DNA of 64,000 bases, taken from positions 1-64,000 of IMG/VR virus record IMGVR_UViG_3300036766_000876; one strand, 5' to 3'. Below, one piece after another: positions 3,651-53,383 of this stretch. How positions within the stretch are numbered: position 1 is the stretch's first letter; every line of letters begins with the position of its first letter. The notes under the pieces were generated by a model. The model ran no database searches. It was not told the DNA's origin and saw nothing but the letters and a program-made list of their open reading frames with translations. This DNA is from a virus. The translations under genes were made by a program, and so were the position numbers.

Positions 3651-4045
3651 GGAACGGCCACCACCAGCTTGTGGGTGGAGGAGAGGCCCATCTCCTCGAA
3701 CTCGACGACGAACCAGTCCTCCTTCTTGGCCGCCAGACGTTGGAGGCTCGTCTTGCACTGGTCGCAGGCGAAGAGGGACTGGACGTGGACCATCCGCCCG
3801 TACGCTGTAGGGAAGGACGGATCCTTCCCACCGAGCATCAGCACGAGCTGCATCAGCTCCCGTGGGTACTTCGCGCGGAACTCGTCGATGGGCGCGAGGA
3901 AGCGCGCCCGCATCGCCGGAGGGCCGCCGCACGTCGAGCACTCCATCCCCGAGTACATCGTCTTCCGGAAGTACTCGTCAGGGGTGCTGCGCCCACCATC
4001 GAACTTCTTGACGTGGACCGTCTTCGTCTTCTTCGCGTCGCTCAT
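3647..4045 (-). CDS. hypothetical protein with two CxxC pairs
   Basis: 132 residues. Begins at an ATG preceded by GGAAGAGGAAC and overlapping the previous gene as ATGA. Two cysteine pairs, CSTCGG (near residue 36) and CDQC (near residue 97), could form a zinc ribbon around a helical core. A copy of the dispersed bipartite element lies just upstream. No family recognised. Confidence 0.6.
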   Translation of the reverse strand: MSDAKKTKTVHVKKFDGGRSTPDEYFRKTMYSGMECSTCGGPPAMRARFLAPIDEFRAKYPRELMQLVLMLGGKDPSFPTAYGRMVHVQSLFACDQCKTSLQRLAAKKEDWFVVEFEEMGLSSTHKLVVAVP

Positions 4046-4338
4046 GTTCCTCTTCCTTGCCCCGCTGTCCTGAATTTTTCCCAGCGTGCCGCGCTGGACT
4101 TCGGCTCCGTGCCCCTCTGCGTGAGCCCCTTCGCAGCCACCTCCAACCTCCGCCACCTCACGAACTCCGTGTTGTACGCCGTCTGGCAGTCGGCGCGCAC
4201 GCACATCACGCGGCGGATGCTCCCCTTCGGAAGGAGCCGACAGCAAAACGCGCAGCGCCTGGGGCCGGCCTCCTCTTGAAACCTGCGGATGGCCGGACAC
4301 CGCGACAGCTTCAGCTCACCTGCCGGCGGTCGCGCCAT
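4042..4338 (-). CDS. small cysteine-rich basic protein
   Basis: 98 residues, starting MARPPAGELKLSRCP. A RCAFCC ... VMCVRADC arrangement suggests a small zinc finger, followed by a basic helix. The 3' end codes for WEKFRTAGQGRGT because it overlaps the dispersed GGGAAAAA element. Its stop overlaps the next start as ATGA. Unknown function, possibly nucleic-acid binding. Confidence 0.55.
   Translation of the reverse strand: MARPPAGELKLSRCPAIRRFQEEAGPRRCAFCCRLLPKGSIRRVMCVRADCQTAYNTEFVRWRRLEVAAKGLTQRGTEPKSSAARWEKFRTAGQGRGT
4055..4082 (-). repeat. dispersed bipartite element, copy 1
   Basis: Read on the minus strand: GGGAAAAA, 11 bases, GGGGCAAGG, ending 9 bases before the ATG at 4045. Exact match to the consensus shared by about a dozen sites. 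Candidate phage promoter, operator or translation-control site. Confidence 0.65.
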
Positions 4339-4540
4339 GGAATGACGCCTCCGTCTTGAGCGCGTCGCCAATCTCTTGGAGGTGGACGATGCGCAACCGG
4401 ATGAGCGCAGCCCGGTCCTCAAGGGCAGCGGCCCGGTCCTCCAGCGCCGTCAGCCGCGCTGCCTCTGCCCGCTGGCCAACGCGGTAGCCGACACCGAGAC
4501 AAAGCACGGCCAGGGCCGCGCCTATGAACGCCTTGACCAT
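4316..4540 (-). CDS. small membrane-anchored coiled-coil protein
   Basis: 74 residues. The N-terminus is one transmembrane segment (AFIGAALAVLCLGVGYRVG), followed by a heptad-like helix rich in Leu, Ala, Glu and Arg (ARLTALEDRAAALEDRAALI). It overlaps the next gene by 23 bases and follows the portal. Topology resembles spanin or holin accessories, but the real spanins are elsewhere, so the role is unknown. Confidence 0.6.
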   Translation of the reverse strand: MVKAFIGAALAVLCLGVGYRVGQRAEAARLTALEDRAAALEDRAALIRLRIVHLQEIGDALKTEASFHGATAGR

Positions 4541-18866: not shown

Positions 18867-18894
18867 CCTTGCCCGGGCCCGCCCGCTTTTTCCC
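18867..18894 (-). repeat. dispersed bipartite element, copy 6
   Basis: GGGAAAAA-N11-CGGGCAAGG on the minus strand (one mismatch), starting at the terminase stop codon and ending before the gene at 18858. Confidence 0.65.
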
Positions 18895-21602
18895 TACCGG
18901 CTGAGGACGTCCATCCGGCCAGCCTCGACGCGCATGGAGCCGAGGCGGTGCCCCTCGCGGGCGAACCAGCTCGCCATGAGGGAGTCCCCGGTATGCGCTG
19001 CGGGCGCGTAGTAGAGCATCTCCTGGATCCACGTCGCGATTTCTGGATGGGCCGGCATCCCGCCTCGGGAGGGGATGATCCACTTCCGGCCGGCGAGCTC
19101 CGTCGCCATCGACTCGATGCCGAACTCCGGGTGCGCCTTGTTCCGCCCCGTGGTGAACGGCCTGATGGGGACGGCGAAAGCGCCCCTGGCGAACTGGACG
19201 ATGAAGTCCTGAGCGTTGTGAACGACGAAGTCCTCCACCGTGTAGCTCTCGTCCTCCTCGACGGTGAGGTTGAAGACGGCCCCTCCCTTGTTGTCGAGGA
19301 ACGGCGCCTCCTCCATGTCTGGCACCTTGCTCCAACCGTGGAGCCTCTCCAGTACGATGGTGCCGTTTGACTTGCGCCTCGTCTTGGCGGCATCGCTCTC
19401 GAACCAGCGCTTCCAACGTTCCGCCTCCGTCGGCGTTGTCATCCTCTTCCGCAAAGCGCTTGAGCCCTCGTGCGTGAGGGTGAGCAGGTTGAGCGGGCGC
19501 CGCGTCACGACTCGCCCCTCGATGCTGTCTGTCTTCCGGTCGCTGGCGCTGAGCGCCATCGGGATGCCGGCCTGCCCCAGCGTGCTCCGGACGAACATCA
19601 TCCAGTCCCTGGAGATGCTGCACCCAGACAGGAACCACTGCGGCCACTTCGTCGAGGCGTTGTTGGGGCGCGCGCAACCGTCCCCCATCAGCCAGCCGCG
19701 CACCAGCGCGAGGCGGAGCCTCAGTGGCCAGCCCATCCACTTGAGGGGCAGGCACTTCTTGGCGCCCGTCCCGATCCGGAGCGCGTTCGCGAGCTGCGTC
19801 GAGGAGACGACGACGCGCAGCGTGCCCCTGTCCGTTGGGCGCAGCGTCACCTTCCCCCTCACGAGCTTCCACACCTCTCGCTCCACGAGGGCCGCGAGGT
19901 ACGTCTCCTTCTTGCCGAACGTCCAGTACACCTGGCCGCGCGTGGCGTGCCCCTCCGCCATGAAGAGCCCCAGCACGAGGGCGAGGTCCTCCGTGACGGG
20001 CACCGTCTTCGCGGCGTCCCTGAGCGTCTCCGGCAGGTGGAACTGTGCCTTCAGGGCAGGCCAGCGGGGCAGCGCCACCGCCGCGTACGCCGGCTCATCG
20101 CGCACCCCGTAGGACACCCACTGCGCCGCCCCGACTGGCCGGTGGTGGCCCGTCGAGGAGCGCCCGGCCTTGCGGAGCCAGAACCAATGGTTGGGCGTCG
20201 TGACGACTGGCAAGCAACCCTTCGCCTGCGCCCTCACCGTCGTCTGGGCGGTGCCCTCATGCGTCCCGGTGACGGGGCGCCAGCGCCCCTTGTGCGTCCA
20301 GACGAGGTCCCCGAGCTGGACCTGCTCGATGGGCTTGTAGCCCTCGCTGGTGAGCACGCGAGTCCCTGGGGCGAAGCAGGCGTTGTTCTCCACCACGACG
20401 ATGGAGAGGAACCGGCGGTGGTGGTCGATGATGCGGGAGACAATCTCCGGCCCGCTCCACTTCCCCCGCTCGATGTTCAGCACCTCCCTGTCGTTGGTGT
20501 TGGGATGGACGGCGATGGTGAAGAGCACCGTCGAGTCGGAGCCATCCTTCTGCTGCACGGCGAGGTCCACTCCCGTGTACGTCTTGAAGCCCGGGGGGAG
20601 CTTGTCCATCCCGTAGCAGAGCTGCTTGCCCTCGCCACGCGCCAGGCAGACGTCGATCCACTCCTTCTTGAAGCGGGCCTCGTCGTCGGAGCGCGCCACG
20701 CAGAGGAGCTGTCGGGCGAACTCCAGTGGCCCCAGCGTCTCCCGGACGCGGGCGATGCGCTCTGGGGGCCAGCGCTCCGCCCACCTCGGAGTGCCGTCCT
20801 CCAGGAGCACCGGGTAGCGCATCGCCTTGAAGCCCGGCATGCGAGCCAGCCGGTGGAGGGCGTCGTCGGGGTGGAAGGCCGTGCCCACGACGAGGACGCG
20901 CCCCTTTGACGTGAGGCGGGAGAGGCAAGCCGCCTGGAGCCACGCGAAGCAGTCCTCCCTCCCCTGCGCGCTGCGGGTGTTCTCCACGTCGAGGAGGTCA
21001 TCCACGATGAGGAGGTCGAGCCGGGAGCCGAGGATGTTTCCGTGGACGCCGATGCCCTGGATGGAAGGGTCCTTCGAGATGCTCTGACGCTTCACCGTGA
21101 TGGCGCTCGTCGTCCACTGGTCCGAGCTGGGGCGGAGGTCCGGGAACACCGCGTGGAGCTCCGGGCTCGACTCGATGTACCGCTTGATGGAGCGGAGCAC
21201 CTTCTGGCTCTGCCCCGCCGTGTTGGAGACGATGCCGATGCGCAGACCCTTGTCCCGCCCGAGCTCGAAGAGCGTGCGGGCGATGCTGAGCTGGCTCGTC
21301 TTCCCGGACTCGATGGAGCTCCAGAGCATCAGCCTGTCGTTCTCGCTCGCCAGCTTGTGCCAGGCCCGGTGGACCTCCGCCTGCTCCAAGGGAAGGCCAG
21401 TCCGCTCGTCTCGCATGACGGTAGTGACGAAGCAGTTGATGTCCTCACGGGCGGCCTCCAGGAGGTTCTGCGTCAGGTAGGCGTCGGACTCGGCATCGAG
21501 CGGCACCTCCACGGCCAAGTCCAGGGCAGCAGGCTGCCCCGCCGGCCAAGCACTGAGGGTGGGGCCGCCGAAGAGGCTGGTTGGCGTTGGGGCGTTTGCC
21601 AT
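18894..21602 (-). CDS. terminase large subunit, interrupted by an intein
   Basis: 902 residues encoded, of which 388 are an intein, leaving a 514-residue terminase. ATPase: Walker A SSIESGKTSQ (residues 95-104), Walker B LDLLIVDD (195-202), coupling motif VVGTAFHPDD (238-247). Nuclease: first acidic residue in YTGVDLA (Asp346), second in VVVE (Glu405), and a C-terminal acidic region around YYAPAAHTGDSLMA. The enzyme cuts concatemers and drives DNA into the head at the portal. The intein sits four residues after Glu405, in the most conserved part of the nuclease centre. The putative small subunit is immediately upstream. Confidence 0.9.
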   Translation of the reverse strand: MANAPTPTSLFGGPTLSAWPAGQPAALDLAVEVPLDAESDAYLTQNLLEAAREDINCFVTTVMRDERTGLPLEQAEVHRAWHKLASENDRLMLWSSIESGKTSQLSIARTLFELGRDKGLRIGIVSNTAGQSQKVLRSIKRYIESSPELHAVFPDLRPSSDQWTTSAITVKRQSISKDPSIQGIGVHGNILGSRLDLLIVDDLLDVENTRSAQGREDCFAWLQAACLSRLTSKGRVLVVGTAFHPDDALHRLARMPGFKAMRYPVLLEDGTPRWAERWPPERIARVRETLGPLEFARQLLCVARSDDEARFKKEWIDVCLARGEGKQLCYGMDKLPPGFKTYTGVDLAVQQKDGSDSTVLFTIAVHPNTNDREVLNIERGKWSGPEIVSRIIDHHRRFLSIVVVENNACFAPGTRVLTSEGYKPIEQVQLGDLVWTHKGRWRPVTGTHEGTAQTTVRAQAKGCLPVVTTPNHWFWLRKAGRSSTGHHRPVGAAQWVSYGVRDEPAYAAVALPRWPALKAQFHLPETLRDAAKTVPVTEDLALVLGLFMAEGHATRGQVYWTFGKKETYLAALVEREVWKLVRGKVTLRPTDRGTLRVVVSSTQLANALRIGTGAKKCLPLKWMGWPLRLRLALVRGWLMGDGCARPNNASTKWPQWFLSGCSISRDWMMFVRSTLGQAGIPMALSASDRKTDSIEGRVVTRRPLNLLTLTHEGSSALRKRMTTPTEAERWKRWFESDAAKTRRKSNGTIVLERLHGWSKVPDMEEAPFLDNKGGAVFNLTVEEDESYTVEDFVVHNAQDFIVQFARGAFAVPIRPFTTGRNKAHPEFGIESMATELAGRKWIIPSRGGMPAHPEIATWIQEMLYYAPAAHTGDSLMASWFAREGHRLGSMRVEAGRMDVLSR
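19215..20378 (-). mobile_element. intein with LAGLIDADG-type endonuclease in terminase
   Basis: Residues 409-796 of the terminase frame. Block A starts with Cys409 (CFAPGTRVLTSEG), block B has the TxxH form (VVTTPNHWFW), and the end reads FNLTVEEDESYTVEDFVVHN, with the usual penultimate His and terminal Asn796. Two dodecapeptide-like motifs, LVLGLFMAEGH (543-552) and LVRGWLMGDGC (633-643), keep an acidic residue each, so the homing endonuclease looks intact. The next residue after Asn796 is Ala797, not Cys, Ser or Thr as canonical splicing needs. Joined exteins would read VENNA-AQDF. Confidence 0.85.
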
Positions 21603-37473: not shown

Positions 37474-37501
37474 ACTTGCCCCATGGGACTGACATTTTCC
37501 C
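37474..37501 (-). repeat. dispersed bipartite element, copy 9
   Basis: GGGAAAAT-N11-GGGGCAAGT on the minus strand (two mismatches), beginning at the polymerase stop codon, 27 bases before the next ATG. Confidence 0.6.
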
Positions 37502-40086
37502 TACAGCTTCACCTTCTCCAGGCTCCCCCAGGACGCCCCCATCTCGACGTCCACCTCCAGGGGCACGAAGTCGGTGGCCCAAGGGAAGTTGAGCATCTCG
37601 TGGCGAGCGGCCAGCGCGGCGTCCTTCCACGTCTTCTTGGGAGCCACCAGCATGATGCTGTCGTGGATGGGGAGCACGAGCTCCGCGTCGATGGCCCCGG
37701 CCTCGATTCGGCTCACCACGCGGGCGATGGAGGCGACGCAGAAGTCGCTGGAGGTGCCCTGGATGGGGCTGTTGATGGCGCCGTTCTTGGCATTGGAGGC
37801 CGCGTACCGCCCCTCGTCGCTGTCGTCCCCGATCCGCCACAGCGGCCGCCACCGGGCCTTCTGGCCCTCCCAGATTGTCCAGCAGCCGCCCGCGGCCCGA
37901 GCGAAGGACACAGCCTCCCTCGTCCAGCGGCCGTACGCCTTGAACTCCCCGAAGATGGCCGCACGAATGGCCGCCGCCCTGTGCTCGTCGATGCCGAGCT
38001 CCGCGGCCAGGGAGCGGTCCGTCTTCCCGTAGGCGATGCCAAAGTTGTACGCCTTGGCGCCTGTGCGGTGGACCTTCGTCACCTGCTCCGGCTCGATGTT
38101 CCAGGCGAGCTTGCAGATGAGCTTCGCTGTGCCGAGGTGGAAATCCACGCCTGACTTGAACAGCGCGGCCATGGCCTCGTCCCGGCTGAGGAGCGCCGCA
38201 ATCCGGAGCTCTAGCTGGCTGTAGTCGAGCTGGACGAGGACCTTCCCATGCGGCGCGCGGAAGCAGTCCCGGGCCCGCTTGCCGTCCGCGTCGTCCGCCC
38301 GTGGCAGGTTCTGGAGGTTGGGATTGCTGCACGACGTCCTTCCAGACCGCGCCCCGTCCAGGTGGATGCTGGGGCGGATCCTCCCGTCGTCGTCAACGTA
38401 CCGCGGCCAGTCGTCGGAGTAGCCCACGAGCTTCTGGTGGTGGCGGTACTCCAGGATGTACCCAGGGAGCGGGTGTTGCCCCTTGAGGAGGCTGAGCGCC
38501 TCCTCCCCAGTGCTCGGCGCCCCGCCCTCCGTCTTGAATGGCGGGTTGAGCCCGAGCTCGTCATACAGCACGCGCGCAAGCTGCTGCGGGCTGTCCACGT
38601 TGAGCGTCGTTCCACCAAGCGCGTACTGCTGCACCTTGTCGAAGGCCTCGTCGCGCGCCTGGCGAGCCATGTCCCCGAACAGGAGGCCCGCCTGCGCGTC
38701 GAAGGGCACACCCCACTCCTCCACGCGCTGGATGGCGACTGCCGCCGGCATCACGACGTTGTCGAGAATGGCCTGGCGCTCGGGGCTCCGCATCACCTCC
38801 AGGCTCAACCTCGACTCGATGCGCGCCGTGGAGAGCGCGTCCCGCGCGGCGTACCGCTGGCGGAGCTCCGGCTGGAGGAAGGCGAAGGCGATGGCCTTGG
38901 GGTTGGGGGCGTACTTGGCGATGTCGAAGCCCTGCCACTCCTCCAGGTCGATGTCGTTGAGGAAGCTGAACGAGCCTGTCCTCGCGGCGGCATCCTTTGC
39001 CTGCTGGGCGGCAGCCGTGGCGATGCGCAGACACACTGCGTCGAGCGCCTCGTCCGCCTCCCGCTTGTGGCCGCCCATCCCAACGAGCTCAGCCATGTCT
39101 GCCAGGTTGCCCGTCGCCTCCGGGTCCATCAGCTTCCGCTTCAGCCGCACATCGAAGGAGATGCCCCTCACGATGCAGCCGAGAGCCGACTTGAGCGCTG
39201 CCTGATCCACCTTGACGTTGGCCCCGCCCTTGGGCGCGCTGGCGTCCTCCAACAGGGAACGGAGAGGCGCGAACACGGCGGCATCGAGGAGCGCCTTCTC
39301 GCCCCAGACGAAGACTTCCTGTCCGCCAACAGGGGCCGCGGAGAGCTCCAGCAACTTGAAGTCGGGCCCCCACTTGCTCCCTGCGTACTCCAGGTCGAAC
39401 GCGAAGGAGTCCGCCGCCTTCAGGACACCAACAGCGGAGGCGCTGTCCTCCGGCGTCTCCACAACGGCTGCCTCCGCTGAGAGGTGCCACGGCTGCTGGA
39501 CGGCCGCCTTGAGCGCCCACCGGAGGTCCTCCTCGAAGTACTTCCACAGGAAGCGGTTGTGCCCACAGTCGCGTGGGTGGAGCACAAAGAAGACCGGCAC
39601 CGGCCTCCCGTCGTTCCACAGCCAGGTGTACGTCTTCCGCGCGTTGAGGGGCTGCACCCTGCGGCCCACAAAGGAGAGCGCCGCCTCCGCCCCGAGGAGG
39701 ACGACGCGATCCGGCTGCGTCTCCCTCAGCGTCTCCGCCAGGTGGCTCCGGCACGCCAGGATGTCACGGTCCGTCGTCTCCACCTTGCCGAGGCACCGGA
39801 TGCCGCTGTCCAAGACGATGCCACCGTCCCACCAGCGGCGTACCAACGGGCGGAGCTTCGCGCTCGCGGCCCCAACGAACGGCCGCCCCTCCATGTCCTC
39901 CGCCCTACCCGGACGGTCCCCTACGACAAGGAGCTTTGGCCCCTCGGCAGGGAACACCTCCGGCATGAGCACCCGCTTGCGCCCGTCCGACTGAGCGCAG
40001 CGGTTGCAATCCTGGCCAACCTGGCGTGGCGTGGCGAGCTCGACCGCGAGGCGCGGTGGCGTCGGGTAGAGCTTGATGCGCCGCAC
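37501..40086 (-). CDS. polA: DNA polymerase I-type with N-terminal uracil-DNA-glycosylase domain
   Basis: 861 residues. Residues 25-190 look like a family-4 uracil-DNA glycosylase: four cysteines in the iron-sulfur pattern (27, 30, 98, 112), GDRPGRAEDMEGRPFVGAA (56-74) and a late HP (170-171). Then a 3'-5' exonuclease (FAFDLEYAG, Asp231/Glu233), and the polymerase with motif A VQLDYSQLELR (Asp621), motif B RTGAKAYNFGIAYG (674-687) and motif C LPIHDSIML. There is no 5'-3' nuclease domain. Replicates the phage genome; the glycosylase domain may scan for uracil in the template. Confidence 0.88.
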   Translation of the reverse strand: MRRIKLYPTPPRLAVELATPRQVGQDCNRCAQSDGRKRVLMPEVFPAEGPKLLVVGDRPGRAEDMEGRPFVGAASAKLRPLVRRWWDGGIVLDSGIRCLGKVETTDRDILACRSHLAETLRETQPDRVVLLGAEAALSFVGRRVQPLNARKTYTWLWNDGRPVPVFFVLHPRDCGHNRFLWKYFEEDLRWALKAAVQQPWHLSAEAAVVETPEDSASAVGVLKAADSFAFDLEYAGSKWGPDFKLLELSAAPVGGQEVFVWGEKALLDAAVFAPLRSLLEDASAPKGGANVKVDQAALKSALGCIVRGISFDVRLKRKLMDPEATGNLADMAELVGMGGHKREADEALDAVCLRIATAAAQQAKDAAARTGSFSFLNDIDLEEWQGFDIAKYAPNPKAIAFAFLQPELRQRYAARDALSTARIESRLSLEVMRSPERQAILDNVVMPAAVAIQRVEEWGVPFDAQAGLLFGDMARQARDEAFDKVQQYALGGTTLNVDSPQQLARVLYDELGLNPPFKTEGGAPSTGEEALSLLKGQHPLPGYILEYRHHQKLVGYSDDWPRYVDDDGRIRPSIHLDGARSGRTSCSNPNLQNLPRADDADGKRARDCFRAPHGKVLVQLDYSQLELRIAALLSRDEAMAALFKSGVDFHLGTAKLICKLAWNIEPEQVTKVHRTGAKAYNFGIAYGKTDRSLAAELGIDEHRAAAIRAAIFGEFKAYGRWTREAVSFARAAGGCWTIWEGQKARWRPLWRIGDDSDEGRYAASNAKNGAINSPIQGTSSDFCVASIARVVSRIEAGAIDAELVLPIHDSIMLVAPKKTWKDAALAARHEMLNFPWATDFVPLEVDVEMGASWGSLEKVKL

Positions 40087-50819: not shown

Positions 50820-52196
50820 TCAACCTCCTGAAGCGCTCTTCAACACGACGACCTTCCCCCACTTCGCGGGGGCCTCGTTGGCGCCGGCACCACACACGAG
50901 CCAGATGGTGTTCATCCGCATTGGCTCCGGCCCAGGGTCCCCGATGTGCCCGTCCGTGCAGATGACGAGCACCTCCGGGCGCCGGGCCGCCTTGCAGGCA
51001 GCGTCGATGGCGGGCTTCATGTCCGTCCCGCCTCCGCCCTTCATGGCGGCCGCTGCCTCCTTCACATTGCGGATCCTCACCGCCGCGTGGACGTCAGCGT
51101 CGCAGGCGTAGAAGGCCACCTCCGCGCCAACGGCCGCCAGGATGCCCTTCACTTCCTGGAGCCCCTCCTTGATGGAGTCGTCCCCCATGGAGCCAGAGGT
51201 GTCCTGGATGACGGCCACGGCCGGGATGGGCATGCGCAGCGCCGGGAACACCGGCTTGCCGCTCCCGTACCCGATGGCTCCCTGCCGCCGCGACGGCCTG
51301 TCGTAGCGGTAGTCACCGGCACCAGGGCGGTAGGCGATGGCGTTGCGCACGACGCGCGCCAACTCCTGCTGCCAGGGTACCTGCGGTGGCCCCAGGACTT
51401 CCTCCGCCCAGCGCTGGAGGCCCGCTGGGACGGAGCCCCGGCCCTTGCTGGCAGTGTGCTTGCGGACGGCCTCAGCGACGGCGCGCTGAACCCGCTTCTG
51501 CTCCGCCGAGCTCTTCCCCAGCTCAGCCGGGACGCTGTCCTCCAGCTCCCCAGCCTTGTTGCCTGCCCCGGAACCACACCCTGCGCAGCCTCCGTGAGGC
51601 ACTACAACGTCCCCCTCACCGGGGGCACCCTTCCCCTTGCCGCTCTGCGGCTTGCCGTCTCCGGGCTGCCTCTGCGCCATCCCGGCCTTGCCCTGGGGCG
51701 GAGCCTTCCGGCGCAGCGCCGCGTAGTACTCCTCTGCCAGGCGCCCCTCCGGTTGGCCGAAGTCCCCTGGGAGCACCTGGTAGTGAATCGACTGCCCAGC
51801 CAGGTCCTCGTGGATGAACTTCCCGTCCACCCTCGGGTACTTCGCGCCGGCCGCCACGAGGTCGTCGTCAATCTCGGCGTCAGCAGCGTAGTTCCAGAGC
51901 TTGGCGAGGTCCGGCTGCGCGGTGGCGCCGACCTGCTCTGCCCGCTGGAGGTGCGTCCGTACCCAGTGGCAGGCCTCGTGGAGGAGCGTCCAAGCAGCCT
52001 CCTCGACGCTCCACACCGCACTCAGCGCCGGGTCCCAGAGGAGCACCCCGCGCTTGGTGACGGCCATCGTCTTCAGCCCAGGCGTTTGGTGGGGCACGAG
52101 CCCCATCACCGCCGCGCTGAAGTACGGCATGAGCTGCGTGGCCTTGATGCGCGCCGCCGCGAACCAGCTCGCAGGGTCCTTCAGTGCATTTGCCAT
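50820..52196 (-). CDS. VWA-domain protein with HExxH metallopeptidase-like domain (DUF2201-type)
   Basis: 458 residues. The N-terminal domain has AAWTLLHEACHWVRTHLQRA (HEACH, zinc-peptidase-like) and NYAADAEIDDDLV. The middle is a glycine/proline linker with GGCAGCGSG. The C-terminal VWA-like domain has the metal site VIQDTSGSMGDDSI and VLVICTDGHIGDPGP. Such proteins pair with MoxR AAA+ ATPases, here encoded by the next gene upstream, as chaperone or activation complexes. Its function in a phage is unknown. Confidence 0.8.
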   Translation of the reverse strand: MANALKDPASWFAAARIKATQLMPYFSAAVMGLVPHQTPGLKTMAVTKRGVLLWDPALSAVWSVEEAAWTLLHEACHWVRTHLQRAEQVGATAQPDLAKLWNYAADAEIDDDLVAAGAKYPRVDGKFIHEDLAGQSIHYQVLPGDFGQPEGRLAEEYYAALRRKAPPQGKAGMAQRQPGDGKPQSGKGKGAPGEGDVVVPHGGCAGCGSGAGNKAGELEDSVPAELGKSSAEQKRVQRAVAEAVRKHTASKGRGSVPAGLQRWAEEVLGPPQVPWQQELARVVRNAIAYRPGAGDYRYDRPSRRQGAIGYGSGKPVFPALRMPIPAVAVIQDTSGSMGDDSIKEGLQEVKGILAAVGAEVAFYACDADVHAAVRIRNVKEAAAAMKGGGGTDMKPAIDAACKAARRPEVLVICTDGHIGDPGPEPMRMNTIWLVCGAGANEAPAKWGKVVVLKSASGG

Positions 52197-52228
52197 GGTT
52201 GGTTCTCCTTGTTGGGGGTTGGTTGGGG

Positions 52229-53383
52229 CTACTCGCTCCTGGCCACGAAGCCCGCCGCCGCCAGGATGGGCTGAATCTTGGCGAGGCTGGCGTACGCGCT
52301 CTTCCCGCTGGTGAAGCCCTTCTTGGCGAGCACCATGGCGGCATCCACGACGATGTCTGCGTTCTTGTCGATGACAGTGCCGATGATTTCCCACAGCTTC
52401 TCAGCCCGCTCCTTACGCTTGGGAGCCTTGTCCGGAGCGATGAGCGCCGCGCAGGAGGCGAGCACCGACACCGTGCGGTCCAGCCGGCGGACGTCGTGCT
52501 TGAACTCCGTGTTGCCGTCGAGCACGTCGGCCGGATCCGGCAGGTCAACCTCCTTGATGTAGGAGAGGAACTCCGCCGCCGCCCCGACGCCGATGAACGC
52601 CGTCAGGAGCTCCTCCTTGTCGGCCTGGTCGATGCGATGCAGCTCCGCGCCCGCCCACGCGCGGCACCCGAGCTCCCAGGTGCGGTGCGACGGCCACGCG
52701 CGCCCCGCCTCCGGGCTGCCGGACTTGGGCATCATGTGGAGCATCGACGGCTTGGCCGTGATGAAGCCCGAGACGAGCCCCTTGGCGCGGGCGAACGGCT
52801 CTGCCCACTCCTTCTCGACACGGGCCTCCAGGTCCGCCGCCTTCACCTTGATGGCGCCGGCCTCACCGCCGCCCAGCAGCCAGGCGCTCCACTGGCGCGC
52901 GTCCGGCTTCTCCCAGGCGAGGTGCCCGAAGCGGTTTGCCAGCGGGGGAGCGAGGTCCCAGCCGCCGGCCGCGTCACCCACCTTGTTCTGCGCCGCAAGG
53001 ATGCGGACGGTGTGGGGCATCTTGTACTCCCCCACGGCGCCGTCGGTCGCCAGCCGGAGCATCGCGGCCTGCATGGCGGGAACGTTGGTGTTCAGCTCGT
53101 CGAGGAAGACCACCCCGCGGAGCGCCTTGGCCATGTCCAGCGCCCACGCCGGGGGCACCAGGCGGAAGCGGTCGTCCTCCAGGCGGGCCAGGCCGCCAAC
53201 GTCCGTGGGCTCCCGGATGCTTCCGAGGATGACCTCGACCTTGAGCCCGTAGTCGAGCTCCACCTGCTCGACGATGTTCGTCTTCGCCGTCCCGGGCTCC
53301 CCCTCGAAGATGACCGGGAGGCCCCAGCGGCCCTTGCTGCCGGGGGTGAAGAGGACCACCTTCATGATTGCCTTGATGTCCAC
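52229..53383 (-). CDS. MoxR-type AAA+ ATPase
   Basis: 384 residues from GTG 53383. Walker A IFEGEPGTAKTNI, Walker B GVVFLDELNTNVPAMQ, sensor 1 RILAAQNKVGD, arginine-finger region PPLANRFGHLAWE. The C-terminal half is helical. MoxR ATPases remodel client proteins together with VWA partners; the partner is encoded directly downstream. Expression is probably shared through the two-hairpin leader at 53407. Confidence 0.85.
   Translation of the reverse strand: MDIKAIMKVVLFTPGSKGRWGLPVIFEGEPGTAKTNIVEQVELDYGLKVEVILGSIREPTDVGGLARLEDDRFRLVPPAWALDMAKALRGVVFLDELNTNVPAMQAAMLRLATDGAVGEYKMPHTVRILAAQNKVGDAAGGWDLAPPLANRFGHLAWEKPDARQWSAWLLGGGEAGAIKVKAADLEARVEKEWAEPFARAKGLVSGFITAKPSMLHMMPKSGSPEAGRAWPSHRTWELGCRAWAGAELHRIDQADKEELLTAFIGVGAAAEFLSYIKEVDLPDPADVLDGNTEFKHDVRRLDRTVSVLASCAALIAPDKAPKRKERAEKLWEIIGTVIDKNADIVVDAAMVLAKKGFTSGKSAYASLAKIQPILAAAGFVARSE

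Follow-up and report, generated by a model that had tools for sequence, protein, structure and literature searches.

Inteins are regarded as requiring a nucleophilic residue at the +1 position, and the lack of one is taken as a mark of the mostly cleaving bacterial intein-like (BIL) domains. The locus analysed here raises the question of whether, and by what route, a phage terminase (TerL) can be restored from a precursor in which an otherwise canonical intein is followed by Ala.

The TerL gene and its intein

The analysed DNA (the window) covers the initial 64 kb of a virus record that is 94,299 bases long. The host protein of the intein was identified as TerL by a match to phrog_38, which covers residues 43–408 with an E value of 9.1e-55. 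The features of the gene are collected in Table 1, and the splice-site flanks read VVVENNA|C...VVHN|AQDFIVQF. The preliminary description of this locus as a canonical intein (Cys1, TxxH, terminal His-Asn, two LAGLIDADG motifs) followed by Ala797 was confirmed by translation, domain matches and alignment. The size of 514 residues that it gave for the spliced product is likewise correct (902 − 388), as is its placement of the insertion four residues after the Glu of VVVE. That Glu and the Asp of HTGD are invariant in the TerL alignment and, from what is known of terminases, are putative metal ligands of the nuclease.

Table 1. Features of the intein-containing TerL gene in the window
Feature	Position	Strand	Basis
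Complete TerL ORF, 902 aa, no internal stops	18894..21602	-	Translation
N-extein, residues 1–408 (ending VVVENNA), with the ATPase domain of TerL and the initial portion of the nuclease	20379..21602	-	phrog_38 match; alignment with intein-free TerLs
Putative metal-binding Glu405 of the nuclease (VVVE), with Cys1 four residues further on	20388..20390	-	Invariant in TerL alignment
Intein, residues 409–796 (388 aa, Cys1 to Asn388): HINT splicing domain with inserted LAGLIDADG endonuclease	19215..20378	-	Domain matches; predicted fold; four same-site homologues
Cys1 (codon TGC), N-terminal nucleophile of intein, invariant in 5/5	20376..20378	-	Alignment of five inteins
Block B TPNH (TxxH); TPNH in 4/5, SPTH in L152	20187..20198	-	Alignment of five inteins
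LAGLIDADG motif 1, with the end LGLFMAEG; L003 has ARG, without the acid	19950..19979	-	Alignment
LAGLIDADG motif 2 (VRGWLMGDG); L003 has GAG, without the acid	19677..19703	-	Alignment
His387-Asn388 of block G, the Asn being the C-terminal residue that cyclises; invariant in 5/5	19215..19220	-	Alignment
+1 residue, Ala797 (codon GCT), side chain non-nucleophilic; Ala in 5/5 intein-bearing TerLs	19212..19214	-	Codon and alignment
C-extein: remaining TerL nuclease, 106 aa and stop codon; third putative catalytic Asp (HTGD)	18894..19214	-	Alignment with intein-free TerLs

Two further ORFs of the window were annotated. That at 37501–40086 (-) encodes 861 aa, with a uracil-DNA glycosylase domain (residues 44–179) followed by 3′-5′ exonuclease and family A DNA polymerase domains. 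That at 50820–52394 (-) encodes a putative metallopeptidase/VWA-like DUF2201 protein, for which the PHROGs label is HNH endonuclease family. No tRNA was found in the 64-kb window.

Domain matches and predicted fold

Within the intein, Hint_2 was matched above the Pfam cut-off (E value 7.5e-9), and the match to the NCBIfam model intein_Cterm (TIGR01443; 17.2 bits, against a cut-off of 15.6) stops exactly at Asn796. The match to LAGLIDADG_3 was weak (E value 0.03) and below the cut-off. The two LAGLIDADG motifs retain their terminal acids (AEG, GDG) in the window and in three of the same-site homologues described below (L145, L146 and L152), and a homing endonuclease is predicted for these four.

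A first structure model, built from five aligned rows (mean pLDDT 59.9), was too weak and was set aside. The model used was built from 20 aligned HINT domains and has a mean pLDDT of 77.9. Taken over its length, the predicted fold matches LAGLIDADG-bearing inteins (TliVMA, 7qsu; Z score 28.1, rmsd 3.3 over 318 residues). The predicted splicing domain was matched about equally by a BIL from C. thermocellum (2lwy; Z score 14.5, rmsd 2.3 over 121 residues), a DnaB mini-intein (1mi8; Z score 14.5) and the RecA intein of Mtu (3ifj; Z score 13.8), so that the modelled fold does not separate an intein from a BIL.

Same-site inteins in other viral contigs

Homologous inteins at the identical TerL site were found in five viral contigs, i.e. 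the window, L003 (3300031463_000006), L145 (3300010413_000018), L146 (3300008267_008223) and L152 (3300032893_000015). The five are 370–397 aa in length, and the other four share 42–60% identity with the window intein. Cys1, the block B T/SxxH and the terminal His-Asn are invariant, and the +1 residue is Ala in every case, encoded by four different codons (GCT, GCG, GCC, GCA and, again, GCG). These five form one homologous group, so their agreement does not amount to five independent proofs. No conserved Cys, Ser or Thr occurs within positions +1 to +8 in the alignment of the five TerLs.

A pattern in which the +1 residue was left open (HN-x-Q[DE][FY]xxQ) matched 34 contigs. Three of these (L120, L123 and L136) were TerL inteins, all with Ala, and in the remaining 31 the translations gave no sign of a TerL or intein setting. 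Copies with changed downstream residues are overlooked by this pattern, as in the case of L152; when the collection was scanned twice more with profiles, L152 was gained and no further same-site intein was found. At the nucleotide level, 50,697 phage records were searched without a match. A protein search of the same records gave partial matches in 93, none covering at least 80% of the query, and TerL with this intein was absent from the 40 of these 93 that were listed.

The insertion site in intein-free TerLs

The site lies inside the TerL nuclease domain at a conserved position, where the intein is an in-frame insert that is absent from the intein-free relatives. In the alignment, those relatives span the site as VENN-A-A-QDF, and excision of the intein gives exactly VENNA-AQDF. 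An alternative boundary with Cys, Ser or Thr at +1 was sought and rejected, as only the HN|A end regenerates the intein-free sequence. Of the 160 relatives that were confirmed, the best 80 were retained. Among 86 intein-free loci the residue corresponding to +1 was Ala in 80, Ser in four and Gly in two (66, four and one, respectively, in 71 distinct sequences), counts that favour Ala to some extent, as one of the two peptide patterns that fetched most of these relatives contained AQ[DE].

It is apparent from these alignments that TerL natively carries Ala at the +1 site, and no nucleophile need therefore have been lost by mutation in the window phage. By the same token, Ala in all five intein-bearing genes is what the host background (80 of 86) would lead one to expect, and alone is no proof of adaptation of the intein to Ala.

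The preliminary description had also raised the possibility of a sequencing error concealing Cys, Ser or Thr at 19212–19214. A single base change would make GCT a Ser or Thr codon, and the virus record of the window stems from a metagenome; nevertheless, the same Ala-preceding insertion recurs in four further contigs, with four different Ala codons among the five, which rules out a miscalled base, and the intein-free relatives mostly have Ala as well. A base-call or assembly error in this codon thus has a negligible probability, and a recent mutation of the +1 residue is rejected on the same grounds. As judged from the sequences, Ala at +1 is neither an error nor a decayed junction.

The +1 residue in other inteins and at other TerL sites

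The first profile scan also yielded 14 non-TerL loci, two pairs of which are near-copies, and all 14 have a nucleophile at +1 (Cys in nine, Ser in four and Thr in one). Four relatives from named phages all have Cys. Six non-TerL loci came from the second scan: one has Ser at +1, and five are short HINT domains with Gly at +1 between poly-Gly stretches. These short domains (L149/L154 at about 4001–4402, and L156–L159) are 130–133 aa in length, with Cys1, a terminal His-Asn and Gly-rich flanks, and are BIL-like. Such Gly-flanked HINT ORFs occur in viral contigs and in a Leptolyngbya genome record (L149, the one relative that the genome scan gave).

The block G residue five before the terminal Asn (19230–19232, -, in the window) is D/D/D/E/D in the five inteins with Ala at +1. 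The corresponding residue is Gly in 12/12 aligned inteins with Cys, Ser or Thr at +1 and in three of the four named-phage inteins, the exceptions to Gly being L155 (+1 Ser), with Asp, and the named-phage L162, with Asn. A link between the replacement of this Gly and Ala at +1 may be regarded as a lead only.

Inteins were also observed at two other TerL sites. A different intein occupies the Walker A loop in L006 (1527–2594) and L010 (5166–6206), with Thr and Ser, respectively, at +1; these two begin with Ala and have Cys in block F, and would therefore be class-3-like. A 155-aa mini-intein in L066 (1876–2340), with Ser at +1, adjoins the HTGD Asp and represents a third TerL insertion site. A nucleophile is thus present at +1 at the Walker A and HTGD sites, whereas none is present at the nuclease-domain site studied here.

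Selection, phylogeny and mobility

In L003 the acids of both LAGLIDADG motifs have been lost (AEG to ARG and GDG to GAG), so its endonuclease is probably dead. The same copy retains Cys1, TTPNH, the terminal His-Asn and an open frame of 924 aa. In all ten pairwise comparisons among the five, identity is higher over the N-terminal 115 residues of the intein (46–69%) than over the endonuclease part (33–55%). The motifs TGVDL, VENN and H-x-x-D are intact in all five exteins, which indicates that TerL is under selection.

When mapped on a phylogeny of 73 TerLs, the presence of the intein required four changes, four being forced by well-supported branches; an equally low number was obtained with shuffled labels in 43 of 500 trials, and clustering of the intein on the tree is accordingly not established. 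For the five copies, the tree of the inteins does not conflict with that of the exteins, L003 and L152 grouping in both (support 58/42 and 100/100), so that recent homing among the five is not demonstrated. The closest intein-free relatives of L145 and L146 (L006 and L075, respectively) have Ser at +1, yet L145 and L146 themselves have Ala. That in two lineages Ser is close by while the intein-bearing gene has Ala is suggestive only. L146 and its intein-free sister L075 have a nucleotide identity of 0.58 in the 20 codons past the site, compared with 0.79 overall. A co-conversion reading of this difference was dropped, since L070, of the same clade, has residues there in common with L146.

A possible route of splicing and its alternatives

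The retention of Cys1 and of the His-Asn end means that the standard first and third steps of splicing stay possible, whereas the second, side-chain transfer, is impossible with Ala at +1. The reading that we favour, with moderate confidence, is that this mobile-type intein lineage, established at one TerL nuclease site, most likely achieves both excision and extein ligation with no nucleophile at +1. Cys1 would take up the N-extein as a thioester, by an N-S acyl shift aided by TxxH. Asn388 would then cyclise with the help of His387, freeing the C-extein with a new Ala N-terminus, and the α-amine of that Ala would attack the Cys1 thioester directly to give a native Ala-Ala bond. Since the two extein ends lie within a single nuclease fold, this fold may keep the amine close to the thioester, to the advantage of ligation against hydrolysis. 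We infer each of these chemical steps, as well as the templating by the extein. There is precedent in type A BILs lacking a +1 nucleophile, which are described in PMC4031507 as able to splice via a Cys1 thioester, Asn cyclisation and amine attack. The same source describes cleavage products as dominant in the BILs that it reviews, and a Magnetospirillum BIL in which no splicing occurred until the +1 residue was changed to Cys.

The main rival is cleavage only, in which both ends are cut without ligation and the TerL chains of 408 and 106 aa associate as a working nuclease domain. The conservation of Cys1 and His-Asn suits cleavage as well as splicing, and type A BILs are reported to give mainly cleavage products (PMC4031507, PMC7664689). 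The cut would, however, fall within one nuclease fold, between putative catalytic residues, and TerL is kept as one frame across the site in 86/86 intein-free relatives, obtained in searches not aimed at split TerLs; cleavage alone is on balance unlikely. The preliminary description had offered alternative splicing or cleavage into associating fragments. The conservation of the group argues against a failed intein and favours alternative splicing, while ligation and cleavage plus association are not told apart.

Splicing might also follow a nearly canonical course, with a substitute nucleophile inside the intein and a branched intermediate like that of class 3. An internal Cys stands in for the missing end nucleophile in class 3 inteins according to PMC4031507, and some Ser and Thr residues are invariant in the five inteins, including the Ser of VE(E/D)D(E/H)S. 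This alternative is nonetheless improbable: the sole invariant Cys is Cys1, block F position 4 is Asn rather than Cys in 5/5, and the block F Ser is common to relatives with Cys, Ser or Thr at +1. An inert intein, with the 902-aa precursor as the working terminase, would be in keeping with a precursor trapped by the absent +1 chemistry, but the enzyme would then need to accommodate a 388-aa insert beside its nuclease Glu, and the splicing residues are retained in five divergent copies, even where the acids of the endonuclease are gone. It is viewed here as a rather remote alternative.

If ligation without a +1 nucleophile does occur as proposed, it would be efficient enough for a mobile element to persist in an essential enzyme of divergent phages. 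The range of insertion sites would be wider, since inteins could colonise sites closed to class 1, and protein chemists would gain a means of ligation after which the junction contains no Cys, Ser or Thr. With five divergent examples from nature, the splicing question is open to direct test.

Comparison with known intein and BIL classes

The TerL inteins resemble class 1 endonuclease-bearing inteins, such as TliVMA and that of the Pseudomonas phage Lana methylase, in Cys1, TxxH, His-Asn and the LAGLIDADG insert. They differ in that class 1 uses Cys, Ser or Thr at +1, where the TerL inteins have Ala in 5/5. The Lana intein, 23.5% identical to the TerL intein over the matched part, has Cys at +1. 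Inteins of mycobacteriophage TerLs have the same type of host protein, and the five tested are reported to splice, but all seven of the sites described lie in the ATPase domain (PMC5050341, Kelley et al. 2016) rather than in the nuclease domain. Class 3 inteins lack Cys1 and have Cys at block F position 4, whereas Cys1 is present here. Inteins that lack Cys1 or Ser1 while keeping the +1 residue, as they are described, likewise make non-standard use of nucleophiles, and the TerL intein, with Cys1 kept and the +1 nucleophile lacking, is their mirror case. In the literature searched, which left out most subscription journals, no description was found of an endonuclease-bearing intein with Ala at +1.

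The likeness to type A BILs consists in Cys1, the His-Asn end, the lack of a +1 nucleophile and the match of the HINT fold to 2lwy. BILs are given as about 130–155 aa in length (PMC9185962) and as occupying variable regions of non-conserved proteins (PMC7765530, PMC5874633), in contrast to the TerL inteins, with their greater length, their LAGLIDADG domain and a fixed, conserved site in an essential enzyme. The TerL intein departs from class 1 in its +1 residue and from BILs in size, endonuclease and location, and it is neither class 2 nor class 3. A fourth mechanistic class of intein, mobile, with Cys1 and no +1 nucleophile, and with direct thioester aminolysis made efficient by the extein fold, is put forward only tentatively. 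Taken together, the comparisons indicate that the TerL intein probably behaves as a homing intein in its distribution and site, while its chemistry, as we infer it, is that of a BIL.
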